Source: Microbotryum silenes-acaulis (taxonomy: Eukaryota; Basidiomycota; Microbotryomycetes; Microbotryales; Microbotryaceae). Taken from it: a stretch of 64,000 bases of DNA. The notes beneath the pieces are model-generated. The model was given only the letters and a program-made list of their open reading frames with translations. It had not been told where the DNA came from and made no database searches. This document shows positions 24,381-48,058 of the stretch, one piece after another. The stretch spans positions 1,550,001 to 1,614,000 of the forward strand of contig QPFY01000005.1 in assembly GCA_003665825.1 (NCBI GenBank). The letters are read 5' to 3'. Positions within the stretch are counted from its first letter, which is position 1, and every line of letters begins with the position of its first letter. A program made the translations under genes and the position numbers.

Positions 24381-25440
24381 TGTTGAATTGCATTCTGTCA
24401 AGCCTTCGAACACTTCGACATCGGAACGCCGTTTGACGGACTTGCCCGCCTTTCGCCTCGGCGCCTCGCTCCGCGCGCCTTCGCCTCCGCAAGCCTCCAC
24501 CGCGCCCCCTGTCCCTCGAGCCTCGCACCCGGCCTCGTCCCTCGACCGATGTGCACCGTTCGTCAACTTGTCCACATCCCGGTCCGTCTGCCCGTCGTTG
24601 CCAGCTTTGCCTGCTCTGCCAAGCTCGCCACCACGCGCCTTTGCCTCTTGGCACTTTCACCTCGGCGCCTCTTTCGCCGCCGCGCGCCTTCGCCCTCGCT
24701 GCCAAGCCGCCCCCCAGTCTTTCGCCTAGGCGCCTTCGCCTTCGCCGCCAAGCCGCCCCCCCCCCCAGTCTTTCGCCTCGGCACCTTCGCCTTCGCAGCC
24801 AAGCCGCCCCCTTGTCTCCGCCTCCGCGCCAGCCTGCTCAACTCACGCTCGCGCGCCGCCGCCTCCACGCCGGGACTTAGTCAGTCCGCACTCTCCAGCC
24901 TAGCCGAGCCAACGCCTCCGCCTCGCCACAGCCAGTTTGCCACCGCCGACCTCATGACCCATCGGCCATGCAGAACATCGCCCACTCATGATGCCCGCGG
25001 TTCGCAACCTGAAGCCTGTCGTCACGGATCGCCTCACTCAACAACTCTGGATCGTGTAGATAAGTTTCCCCTCGTGTCCGTCGTCCAACACGACACTCCT
25101 CAGAGCCTCGATGGTCCACTTGGAGTTCGGTCTTGAAGCTTCGCATTGTGTTAGCCCAGTTTGTCTTAGCGCGGCCCTTTGCTGGAACCTCACCCGACTC
25201 GCGCGCCCTCGCGCCTCTCTTCCTCTTCTCTACCGCTTCCCAACATTAGCTAGGCAGCTAATCTTCGGTAGAGAACAGATCGCCCAGCCGCACCGCGTCC
25301 GTCTCGTCAGACCGAGCCTGTGCCGCCGCACGACCTCTCCGCCCGGACCGTCCGTCGCAACCTTGCCACGTCGACGCTCCTACAGTAGCCCTAGCGGTCG
25401 CTACGCCAACCTCCCAAGGTCCTGCAGCCTACATTCAACA
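24381..25440 (+). repeat. E1 5' LTR, hybrid of two CopE LTR variants (1060 bp)
   Basis: The start TGTTGAATTGCATTCTGTC matches the solo LTR (variant b). The end CCTGCAGCCTACATTCAACA matches E3 (variant a). The intron-like duplication of variant a is absent. GC-rich runs of GCCTTCGCC-type units lie at about 24650-24830. Confidence 0.85.
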
Positions 25441-25452
25441 GGTTATGAGCCC
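25441..25452 (+). promoter_or_regulatory. CopE primer-binding site containing the gag start codon
   Basis: GGTTATGAGCCC is the complement of the initiator tRNA-Met anticodon arm, identical to the CopD site. The ATG at 25445-25447 lies inside it and starts Gag, so the start codon is the triplet that pairs with the CAU anticodon of the primer tRNA. The same holds in E3 (34764-34775) and E4 (51846-51857). Confidence 0.72.
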
Positions 25453-26596
25453 CAATCGACCTGATCTGCCCCGATTCCCTGCAGCACCTGCGAACCCTAC
25501 CTCCGACGCCTCCCCGGACGCACCCGAACCCACCACCACCGCTTCTCGCGACGCCGCCGACGCCCCCATGTCCACCTCGAGCCACGTTGACCCCACCCTG
25601 GCGGCCAGTATCGACGAGCGCATACACCTCGAAGTACAACGTCGTCTGCGTGAGTTCACTACCTCCCCGACACCGGCCAACGAACGTAAACCCATCGTCT
25701 ACAACATCGATATTCCACGTCACCTCTCAACCTGGCCGGCCGACGCTCTCCTCTCCGGCGTCGAGACCTTCCGAATTTGGGACCGCACGTTACAAGACCG
25801 CGTTGGCGCCACCATCTACGAGTACATCACGACTGGCACCCTCCCCGACCGTGCGGAAGCCATCGACCACGAAAATGTTGAGATCTTCGCCGTCCGCCAA
25901 GTCTCAGATGGTGTCACCGGAAACGTTCGAAAGTCGCTGCTCACCGTTGCCACCGCCCACCGTCGCGCACAGGCCTACTATGATCACCTAAATCGGGAGT
26001 ACAATCCAACGTCGTCACAGTCCACACTCCGTCTGCTCCACTCGTTCTTCAACATTCCGCGCGCACCTATCGAGGAGAAGGGCTTCGTCGAATGGATGGC
26101 CGAATTCCTCAACCAGTCAGCCTGCCTCGAATCAGCCCAAATCACGATAATGGACGTCATCACGGCTCGAGCTCTCACCCTGATCCCCGACGAACTGGAC
26201 GCATTCCGCCAATACATGGAGCTCCACAACACCGACCAGCTACCGACCCCGGCAAACCTCATGACCCTTGCACACAAGCAAGTCAAGAACCACCACGACA
26301 CTCGTAACACTGGCCCGAACGTAACCGCATTTGCGGCAGCATCACCATCGTCATCTCGTCCCTCGCAACAGTCTCCAGCTAAGTTTCCCTGCCCCGCCTG
26401 CAACAACGGCGTGCATCGAGTACGACACTGCCCCGACGACGCCGCCCGCCAACGTTACATCGAGCGACGCCACGGACACCAACGTCACACCACGGCCCCA
26501 ACCATTACCGCACCGGAGGACGCACCCGTCGTAGGCACAATCTCACGGTTCCAAGAACTCCCGGATCCCTCGACGGCCGGCGGCCAAAATTGGTAA
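25445..26596 (+). CDS. CopE Gag, stand-alone (383 aa)
   Basis: This is the only gene of E1. The N-terminal 80 residues are Pro/Ala/Thr-rich. Residues 85-290 are alpha-helix-rich copia-type capsid sequence (STWPADALLSG, LLHSFFNIPRAPIEEKGF). A single zinc knuckle CPACNNGVHRVRHC has C316, C319, H324 and C329. The frame stops at TAA (26594-26596), 109 bp before the polypurine tract, so no Pol is fused or lost by frameshift. The E3 product appears identical and E4 is very close, so the frame is maintained. It should form virus-like particles but needs reverse transcriptase and integrase from elsewhere. Confidence 0.88.
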   Translation: MSPNRPDLPRFPAAPANPTSDASPDAPEPTTTASRDAADAPMSTSSHVDPTLAASIDERIHLEVQRRLREFTTSPTPANERKPIVYNIDIPRHLSTWPADALLSGVETFRIWDRTLQDRVGATIYEYITTGTLPDRAEAIDHENVEIFAVRQVSDGVTGNVRKSLLTVATAHRRAQAYYDHLNREYNPTSSQSTLRLLHSFFNIPRAPIEEKGFVEWMAEFLNQSACLESAQITIMDVITARALTLIPDELDAFRQYMELHNTDQLPTPANLMTLAHKQVKNHHDTRNTGPNVTAFAAASPSSSRPSQQSPAKFPCPACNNGVHRVRHCPDDAARQRYIERRHGHQRHTTAPTITAPEDAPVVGTISRFQELPDPSTAGGQNW

Positions 26597-26705
26597 AGTC
26601 CGCACTCCGCCCAACACCCAGGTCCCCCTTACACCGGTCACTGCCTCGTCGATTACACCACTTGCCACAACCTCCTTTTGTGCTCTTCTGGAAGCGTTCG
26701 AACGA
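26597..26705 (+). other. CopE 3' untranslated region
   Basis: About 110 bp separate the gag stop from the polypurine tract. It ends TTCGAACGAG before the G-run, nearly the same as TTCGAGCGAG in CopD (44360-44369 in reverse). I see no coding sequence. Confidence 0.6.
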
Positions 26706-26712
26706 GGGGGGG
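26706..26712 (+). promoter_or_regulatory. CopE polypurine tract
   Basis: A run of seven G directly precedes the 3' LTR (TGTTGAATTTC). Together with the upstream TTCGAACGAG it matches the CopD tract at 44353-44369 (reverse) in all but one base. Confidence 0.75.
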
Positions 26713-47300: not shown

Positions 47301-47799
47301 TCTTGCCAAAGTGGGTGTAAATGCGCTCGCGGCGCAGCTGCATGACCGAGATCAGGTTTGCCGGAAGGTCGGGAACGTAGTAGACGTTGCAGAGCTTGAT
47401 CGTTCGTTGTTTCGACGTTCGTATCGTGATCGAGCCGGTTCCTTGGGCCATGAGTGATCCACCAGCGCCATCAACGGCGATGTGCGACCGTGTGTGCCAG
47501 ACGTCGAAGAGAGACGCGTCCTTGACCATATGGTGGGAGGCGCCCGAGTCGAGTACAAGAGTGTCGTTGGGAAGGTGGAGTTCACGGTTCGGTTGTAGAC
47601 GACCTAGGAGTGCGGCGACGTTCACGCTGGGCCGAACTGTCACGCTCACAGTTGGGTCCAGGTGCGACGTGTCAAGTTGCGTCATGGTGCGGTAACGGCC
47701 TGTCGCATGGGCGAGGGCGGTCGTAACAGTGTGGTACAGGGCGATGAAGATGACGAAGACGATCATGACGGTCGCAAGTGACGATGGTGGTGGTGGCAT
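44375..47799 (-). CDS. CopD Pol without Gag (about 1140 aa; one frameshift near the C-terminus)
   Basis: ATG at 47799, 20 bp after the primer-binding site. Residues 1-40 have a hydrophobic stretch at about 8-29 instead of Gag. Then: protease DSGAS (D84), pre-integrase finger (H213, H218, C250, C253), integrase core D280, D342, E378, linker at 495-640, reverse transcriptase with YVDD at 824-827, and RNase H (YSDADWG, D993; DAEY; GDNQGALAL). A missing base at about 44550 shifts the frame after residue 1083, so the uninterrupted frame ends at 44416. The shifted frame carries the normal tail (RHIRIREHFVRD, DIFTKALGP) to TAA at 44375. No zinc knuckle occurs before the protease in any copy. The frameshift could be real or a sequence error. 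Confidence 0.88.
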
Positions 47800-47818
47800 C
47801 GTGGAGCAGCTTTAGCTC

Positions 47819-47830
47819 GGGCTCATAACC
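47819..47830 (-). promoter_or_regulatory. D3 primer-binding site
   Basis: GGTTATGAGCCC on the minus strand, directly after the 5' LTR. Its ATG begins M-S-P-S-stop, a minimal frame that shares M-S-P with the start of CopE Gag. Confidence 0.7.
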
Positions 47831-48058
47831 TGTTAAACCGTATGTCTCGAGAGGGGACTGGATCGGCAACCAGTAAGTACACGAGACAGAGTACGGGTTG
47901 TAAGGGAGTAGTTTGGAGCGTTAGGGGGAAGACTAAAGAGGCGCGCAGTGCGAGTGTGCGAAATATCTCTAAGTCCAAAGAGAGGTCCAAGCGGCGCGGC
48001 TAGCCAGGCGCGGCGCGGATTGGAGATTGATCTAAGCAAGAGTGTATGGAATTCAACA
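47831..48058 (-). repeat. D3 5' LTR (228 bp)
   Basis: It appears identical to the 3' LTR. There is no intron-like duplication here, unlike D4. Confidence 0.93.

Follow-up and report, generated by a model that had tools for sequence, protein, structure and literature searches.

Pol-only and Gag-only copia elements with common terminal signals in Microbotryum silenes-acaulis, a candidate two-component retrotransposon

RESULTS

Complementary coding content of CopD and CopE

A window of 64,000 nucleotides in the genome of Microbotryum silenes-acaulis (bases 1550001-1614000 of contig C5, in an assembly of 29.85 Mb and 88 contigs) contains nested long terminal repeat (LTR) retrotransposons, among them two copia-type elements with complementary coding content: CopD encodes Pol with no Gag, and CopE encodes Gag with no Pol. 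Examination of the assembly confirmed that CopD is Pol-only and CopE Gag-only throughout the genome, and a sister family, CopE', whose Gag is ~75% identical to that of CopE, is likewise Gag-only. Judging from their sequences, we favor, with some reserve, the reading that CopD and CopE/CopE' function as a two-component copia retrotransposon. The copies in the window (D1-D4 and E1-E3) are these:

2280..3920, + strand: CopD D1, truncated; LTR 2280-2493, primer site 2494-2505, Pol from 2525, broken
31728..32155, + strand: CopD D2, truncated; LTR 31728-31935, primer site 31936-31947
44125..48058, - strand: CopD D3, Pol-only, both LTRs; 5' LTR 47831-48058, 3' LTR 44125-44352
47819..47830, - strand: core (12-mer) of the D3 primer-binding site, which complements half of tRNA-Met(CAU)
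47812..47826, - strand: D3 upstream frame ATGAGCCCGAGCTAA (MSPS-stop)
44416..47799, - strand: D3 Pol frame; hydrophobic N-terminus, protease, integrase, reverse transcriptase (Pfam)
44353..44368, - strand: D3 polypurine tract
57319..59126, + strand: CopD D4, truncated; 308-bp LTR 57319-57626, primer site 57627-57638, Pol from 57658
24381..27572, + strand: CopE E1, Gag-only; 5' LTR 24381-25440, 3' LTR 26713-27572; no target duplication
25445..26596, + strand: E1 Gag, 383 residues; begins with the primer-site ATG; has a zinc knuckle and a capsid-like fold
26697..26712, + strand: E1 polypurine tract
32637..35635, - strand: CopE E2, Gag-only; 5' LTR 34776-35635, 3' LTR 32637-33503
33620..34771, - strand: E2 Gag, identical to E1 Gag
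49833..51925, - strand: CopE E3, Gag-only; only the last 68 bp of the 5' LTR left
50702..51853, - strand: E3 Gag, 95% identical to E1 Gag
51827..51857, - strand: E3 31-nt primer site, complement to half of tRNA-Met

The original prediction held that four CopD copies lack Gag and start Pol soon after the primer site. Indeed, at all four 5' ends (2280, 31728 and 57319 on the + strand, 48058 on the - strand) the Pol ATG lies 19-20 nt past the 12-mer, with no Gag ahead of Pol. D3 alone has both LTRs within the window, D1, D2 and D4 being truncated or interrupted; its LTRs are identical (228/228) and flanked by the target duplication GACTT/GACTT, as had also been predicted. Despite these identical LTRs, D3 is a poor example of an intact Pol, because its final ~44 residues are in a different frame from that of the eight copies read in which Pol is exactly 1141 residues. 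CopD Pol has the Ty1/copia domain order of protease, integrase and reverse transcriptase (Pfam Pol_BBD 82-158, rve 271-371, SH3 431-502, RVT_2 667-901), and a sequence search of solved structures with CopD Pol returned 14 matches, all integrases. What CopD does not have is the Gag of an autonomous Ty1/copia element: Pol comes directly after the primer site at 49 classified sites.

The three CopE copies are Gag-only as predicted, each with a single Gag frame that ends upstream of the polypurine tract. The prediction that E1 and E3 encode identical Gag was mistaken in its pair, since it is E1 and E2 that are identical. Clean target duplications are absent from the CopE copies of the window; such evidence comes from elsewhere in the genome. 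CopE Gag is of the copia type by its predicted capsid fold and its zinc knuckle: E1 Gag has a profile match to the Gag of full-length elements, and comparison with solved structures showed its structure model to be similar to the capsid of Drosophila Copia. With LTRs, a primer site, a polypurine tract and Gag as the sole frame, CopE and CopE' have the composition of TR-GAG elements.

Two further observations concern the end of this gene. The stop codon of CopE and CopE' Gag lies inside TTGGTAAAGT (26590-26599; also L008:2661-2670, where L numbers denote loci in the genome), which resembles a splice donor, and a gene model of Microbotryum saponariae (P0002) appears to fuse the end of Gag with sequence near the LTR start.

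Genome-wide census of the split

The genome has 82 occurrences of TYAACAGGTTATGAGCCY, an LTR end followed by the primer site, and all 82 were classified: 49 belong to CopD, 7 to CopE, 16 to CopE' and 10 to a short class, and at none of the 82 do Gag plus Pol stand behind the CopD/CopE-type LTR end and primer site. At 47 of the 49 CopD sites a Pol fragment lies at the position predicted by a Pol start just past the primer site; the remaining two, D2 and L052, were identified by reading. A Gag match follows the primer site immediately at all 23 CopE and CopE' sites. Members of the short class were assigned by reading the interior (3), by a match at 99.8% (1) or by interior length (6). This search and that for the junction CGAGGGGGGGTGTTGAATT were exhaustive for their own patterns; TYAACAGGTTATGAGCCY misses altered LTR ends, and a CopD copy (C7:1580293) and a short copy (C9:1226996) were found otherwise.

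The polypurine junction CGAGGGGGGGTGTTGAATT gave the same picture from the 3' side. There are 65 exact sites, with 18 more at one mismatch and 12 more at two; five of the one-mismatch sites were assigned to CopD or CopE' by their neighbors, which makes 70 junctions of CopD or CopE type (hereafter D/E). Fifty-one of the 70 could be joined to a primer site in un-nested pairs, whose interiors are of four sizes: 3439-3461 bp (20, CopD), 1250 bp (5, CopE), 1262-1272 bp (16, CopE') and 549-565 bp (10, short class). None of these 51 interiors holds both genes. The other 19 junctions are 3' ends of CopD, identified by Pol matches or by reading (that on C55 by its CopD LTR, with Pol ~1 kb off). Of the 25 remaining variant junctions, four pair with a primer site and have full-length interiors of 4117-4498 bp; the two that were read, L033 and L034, hold Gag and Pol of other families.

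Searches of the genome at the protein level agree. Identity to a 111-residue piece of CopD Pol (150 of 446 candidates scored) is at least 77% in 54 fragments and does not exceed 44% in any other; 49 of the 54 imply a Pol start 7-23 nt past a primer site, and the other five, which start deeper in Pol and have no primer site where expected, were taken as pieces of broken copies. Gag matches at 66% or more (107 of 368 candidates scored) always lie in an open frame of at most 475 residues. The counts from the search with Pol are minimum values, as 41 of 1241 candidates were scored. Thus the genome search for a full-length relative with CopD or CopE LTRs and both genes, which the original prediction had called for, found none.

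The short class (L031, C37:14200-18700; L032, C9:61000-64200; and others) has E-type LTRs (992 bp in L031) and a 549-565-bp interior with an intact frame of ~152 residues; this frame opens at the ATG of the primer site and is similar to the N-terminus of Gag (42% over 81 columns, E 5e-05). L031 is a head-to-tail dimer with identical LTRs and the duplication TCACC.

Signals common to CopD and CopE

CopD, CopE, CopE' and the short class have similar LTR termini: TGTTGAA...TYAACA in CopD and the short class, and TGTTGAA...TTCAACA in CopE and CopE'. Elsewhere we found TGTGAGG...CGAATA in the full-length copia family F, TGTTGAG...TCTAGA in L033 and TGTTGAA...TCAATA in L034. The D/E polypurine junction is alike beyond the 19-mer on both sides, reading AAGC(G)TTCGARCGAGGGGGGG then TGTTGAATTYCATWC, and a 16-nt U5 motif, CAGGTTAGTTGCAATC, is present in the compared LTRs of long-form CopD, CopE, CopE' and the short class. 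This full set of termini, junction and U5 motif is in none of the three full-length families compared (F, L033 and L034). In the window CAGGTTAGTTGCAATC has four matches (mean of 0.01 in shuffles), TGTTGAATT has 11 sites (mean of 0.30 in shuffles, largest 3), TTCGARCGAGGGGGGG has four exact sites (26697+, 33504-, 44353-, 50586-) and GGTTATGAGCCC has seven. The U5 motifs are at:

27342-27357, + strand: E1
32859-32874 and 34991-35006, - strand: E2
57517-57532, + strand: D4

The primer site is a different matter. It has 128 exact sites genome-wide and is not specific to D/E. Its 31-nt form is found in 11 places (E3, three CopD copies and seven others; a base differs in one of the 11). Taking out the intron read in the gene on C12 leaves a tRNA-Met(CAU) whose 5' half is matched by this form as its reverse complement. 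ARAGORN found no tRNA at six primer-like places, and a wider pattern led to the tRNA-Met gene. The primer-site ATG complements the CAU anticodon, which accounts for the M-S-P start. Thus, among the cis-signals originally predicted to be shared, the LTR termini and polypurine tract stand, and the primer site and M-S-P are not particular to D/E; the LTR termini, the extended polypurine/LTR junction and the U5 motif are, in the comparison of elements, the better shared signals.

The tRNA origin of this segment disposed of two other ideas. The CopD leader is not to be taken as a relic of a Gag start, and the identity of the leader in E3 and three CopD copies is not evidence for template switching and co-packaging, because the 31 nt complement half of mature tRNA-Met and are also found in other copia contexts.

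Selection and recent movement

Both reading frames, CopD Pol and CopE-type Gag, are under purifying selection. For CopD Pol, the ratio of nonsynonymous to synonymous substitution rates (dN/dS) is 0.08-0.22 in the 24 of 28 pairs with a synonymous divergence (dS) of at least 0.059, and 0.11-0.43 in the four closest pairs. For Gag, dN/dS is 0.15 between E1 and CopE' at a dS of ~1.0, 0.21 between E1 and E3, and 0.67, from just three differences, between E1 and L003. As CopE and CopE' are both Gag-only, Gag has long been maintained as a Gag-only gene.

Movement has been recent in CopE' and CopD. In CopE', the 885-bp LTR pairs are identical at 14 of 14 loci (L008-L021), which represent 10 insertions (6 single and 4 head-to-tail dimers), and a separate 5-bp duplication flanks every insertion; among the broken copies L022-L024, L024 alone is comparable, and its LTRs differ. 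In CopD, besides D3, L045 has identical LTRs (229/229) and the duplication GAAGT; L042 is flanked by the duplication ACTTG, and a single 80-base stretch is the whole difference between its LTRs; in L043 the 308-bp LTRs are identical and there is no duplication; and L047 has one LTR mismatch and no duplication. CopE L004 and CopE' L009 and L015 are inserted inside CopD Pol with 5-bp duplications.

The CopE' dimers (LTR-gag-LTR-gag-LTR) lie at distinct targets (L008/L014, L010/L011, L012/L013, L016/L017). One CopE' insertion, with the same flanks and the duplication CGAAT, is on two small contigs (L024, C69:105-3431; L019, C78:4294-8457), and one of the two copies is mutated, which points to duplicated or allelic contigs in the assembly.

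The LTRs of CopD, CopE, CopE', the short class and a family G1 contain a direct repeat of ~50-68 bp split by an intron-like CAG/GTTAGT... (57319-57626, 26713-27572 and 34776-35635 in the window; L008 and L029). Short-form LTRs are without one repeat and the spacer; CopD has 29 short-form and 11 long-form rows among the 40 of 113 candidates scored, and L042 has one LTR of each form with its target duplication intact. Splicing is a possible source of this 80-bp length difference; loss between direct repeats would give the same product.

Leader and N-terminus of CopD Pol

The common M-S-P start had been predicted for both elements. It is the Gag start in CopE; in CopD it is not the Pol start, and instead begins a four-codon upstream frame (MSPS-stop), as seen in 13 copies out of 13. 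The M-S-P frame is longer and overlapping in the CopD copy in L009. The N-terminus of CopD Pol has a hydrophobic stretch (19-residue Kyte-Doolittle mean of 2.1-2.7 in 13 of 13 copies), found also in two Pol-only gene models of M. saponariae (P0007 and P0008). Similarity of full-length relatives to CopD Pol begins at CopD residue 76-82 in 15 of 21 cases and at residues 48, 66, 69, 108, 565 and 619 in the other six. Thus the hydrophobic segment has no clear counterpart in these full-length relatives, and it may be a membrane or particle anchor.

Family F and genomic location

Family F encodes Gag-Pol in a single frame, and its primer-site pattern has 222 matches in the genome with two or fewer mismatches. 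Its positions in the window are:

35689..40943, - strand: full-length copia family F copy; Gag-Pol frame 35903-40522; primer site GGTTATAAGCCC 40603-40614
30417-30428, 40603-40614, 41782-41793, 52316-52327 and 59386-59397: F primer site GGTTATAAGCCC

An extension of this primer site, GGCTGGTAGCTCGTGGGCTTATAACC, is also like a tRNA half, probably of another tRNA. The window further contains an open Ty3-type frame of 2000 residues with a chromodomain (6816-12818) and an open copia frame of 1719 residues from another lineage (15537-20696).

On contigs with CopD, all CopE (6/6), CopE' (11/11) and short-class (7/7) sites lie within 150 kb of a CopD 5' end, compared to 6 of 46 other copia primer sites; in these counts dimers are counted twice, copies nested in CopD are near CopD by definition, and the control covers the first 100 of 128 primer sites. 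Contigs without CopD hold 1 CopE, 5 CopE', 3 short and 10 other sites. The 56 'other' sites actually include one CopD copy (C7:1580293) and one of the short class (C9:1226996), and the latter, 1.1 Mb from any CopD, is an exception to the clustering. The clusters, by eye about one per large contig, suggest centromeres; copia and Ty3 elements make up 77-94% of Microbotryum centromeric transposons (PMC10502011).

DISCUSSION

The original prediction of a matched two-component pair is borne out insofar as the pair is real, multi-copy, selected and recently mobile, with relatives in M. saponariae. Microbotryum supplies the nearest named proteins, and in M. saponariae CopE Gag is 82% and CopD Pol 90% identical to a protein (candidates for Gag in that search were limited to 1.75 times the query length). 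Mutual dependence goes further than this evidence.

Two of the elements compared here, Cereba and Athila, are of the Ty3 type. The closest parallel, as far as extracts of the cited publications describe it, is RLG_Cereba/RLG_Quinta of einkorn wheat (Heuberger et al. 2024, PMC11302176). Like D/E, it joins a Gag-only element to an enzyme donor, with integrase-site termini, primer site and polypurine tract common to both partners, and both insert in the same regions (centromeres for Cereba/Quinta). Quinta, however, evolved from the autonomous Cereba, which has its own Gag and encodes all proteins, whereas no Gag-plus-Pol element with D/E signals is among our classified sites; as the enzyme donor CopD has no Gag, neither D/E partner is autonomous. 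CopD by itself resembles Tos17 of rice (Sabot 2014, PMC3977881), a Gag-less, mobile copia element whose frame is Pol-only and whose LTRs, primer site and polypurine tract are intact, all of which CopD shares (mobility in D3 and L045; the 1141-residue Pol in eight copies). Unlike CopD, Tos17 has no matched Gag-only partner described in the extract, and its presumed donor, Lullaby, has full Gag-Pol and does not share the integrase signal. CopE by itself resembles TR-GAG elements (PMC8704663), which have a single Gag frame and LTRs, transposition having been shown for AT5TE33540, but whose subfamily also includes a relative that has the full set of proteins and is potentially autonomous. Athila of Arabidopsis (PMC2410132) is similarly Pol-less with coding frames under purifying selection, and cooperation is discussed; unlike in D/E, Pol-containing families exist and the extract describes no Pol-only counterpart. 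In Drosophila, HeT-A has no reverse transcriptase, the others depend on its Gag to be targeted to telomeres, and Pol is encoded by TART and TAHRE (PMC5537684); these elements differ from D/E in being non-LTR and telomeric, and TART and TAHRE carry Gag too. The wheat elements Sabrina, WHAM and Wilma (PMC9744471) include semi-autonomous Gag-protease elements in a cooperative complex, such as D/E may form, but have an autonomous member, Wilma. Thus the separate pieces are already known (Pol-only, Gag-only, and Gag-only with an autonomous element), and we found no matched Gag-only/Pol-only LTR pair without an autonomous relative in the parts of the open-licence literature compared, and the word gag is absent from the extracts of Microbotryum transposon literature.

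Several observations weigh against the two-component reading. Little weight can be given to the primer site and M-S-P that the elements have in common, because half tRNA-Met primes other families too; the LTR bodies of CopD and CopE are otherwise dissimilar; and L034, of a full-length family, has the TGTTGAA start and a similar tract. CopE itself (L001-L007) has four comparable LTR pairs, none of them identical, so the recent movers are CopE' and CopD; the best CopE pair, in L003, has one mismatch and no target duplication, and L004 has the duplication GTTAT and LTRs of 860 and 794 bp. The Gag-only (P0001) and Pol-only (P0007, P0008) genes of M. saponariae are known here as gene models alone. 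The Gag and Pol trees, for which 20 of the 126 proteins identified were combined with F and the D/E sequences (the Gag tree omits P0012, P0014, P0015 and P0020, whose Gag is partial), are compatible with a common origin and have long branches that do not resolve it. The genome protein searches rate top-scoring candidates, and an element outside the assembly would escape them. Finally, F is a full-length, abundant Gag-Pol element that lies in the same clusters as D/E (for the first 100 of its 222 primer-site matches), and is a potential Gag donor.

This last point leads to the chief alternative, three-party hitchhiking, which we regard as rather unlikely: CopD would obtain Gag from a full-length copia element, most likely F, CopE and CopE' would obtain Pol from CopD or F, and there would be no mutual dependence. 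Tos17 offers a precedent, a mobile Gag-less copia thought to take its Gag from a full-length element (PMC3977881). However, the termini, polypurine tract and primer site of F are unlike those of D/E, and donation by F leaves the selection on CopE/CopE' Gag (dN/dS 0.15 at dS ~1) unexplained unless they use their own Gag. One-way parasitism, in which CopE is a Gag-only derivative mobilized by CopD, and CopD uses another Gag or was recently immobilized, has models in Gag-only elements with autonomous helpers (TR-GAG, PMC8704663; Quinta, PMC11302176), but is improbable given that CopD has no Gag at 49 classified primer sites and yet has identical-LTR copies with target duplications. Recent deletion from a full-length parent missing from the assembly is more improbable still: such a parent must once have existed and an 88-contig assembly may be incomplete, but CopE and CopE' are old (dS ~1) and both Gag-only, CopD-type Pol has no relatives at 45-76% identity among the 150 of 446 candidates scored, and the Gag-only and Pol-only gene models in M. 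saponariae make a recent parent unlikely.

Under the two-component reading, CopD RNA would encode only the Pol polyprotein (protease, integrase, reverse transcriptase and RNase H), and CopE and CopE' RNAs would encode only Gag, which would build the particle. Both kinds of RNA would be packaged into CopE-type particles, primed by the 5' half of tRNA-Met and started on the plus strand at the same polypurine tract; CopD integrase would recognize the common TGTTGAA...TYAACA termini and integrate both, such that CopD enzymes would serve CopD, CopE, CopE' and the short class. As the Gag-type ATG opens an upstream frame in CopD, Pol would be reached by reinitiation or leaky scanning, and this frame would keep Pol low relative to Gag and could replace the usual ways of making Pol scarce. 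We infer co-packaging, supply in trans in both directions and this control of translation. Foamy viruses, in parallel, make Pol without Gag and package Pol through RNA.

On the stronger proposal our judgment is evenly balanced: D/E may be an obligate bipartite LTR retrotransposon, akin to the genome of a segmented or multipartite virus, in which an ancestral Gag-Pol element was split by complementary loss, before the divergence from M. saponariae, into two selected replicating units, with the Gag:Pol ratio set by separate RNAs and the upstream frame, not by fusion in one polyprotein, and with short riders using the same signals. The usual picture of LTR retrotransposons is one of autonomous elements and parasites. 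If the proposal is true, a retroelement genome can be divided and stay divided within one nucleus, with both parts mobile and selected, and it would raise testable questions about how Pol enters particles unfused to Gag, how the Gag:Pol ratio is set, and transposable elements as mutual dependents.

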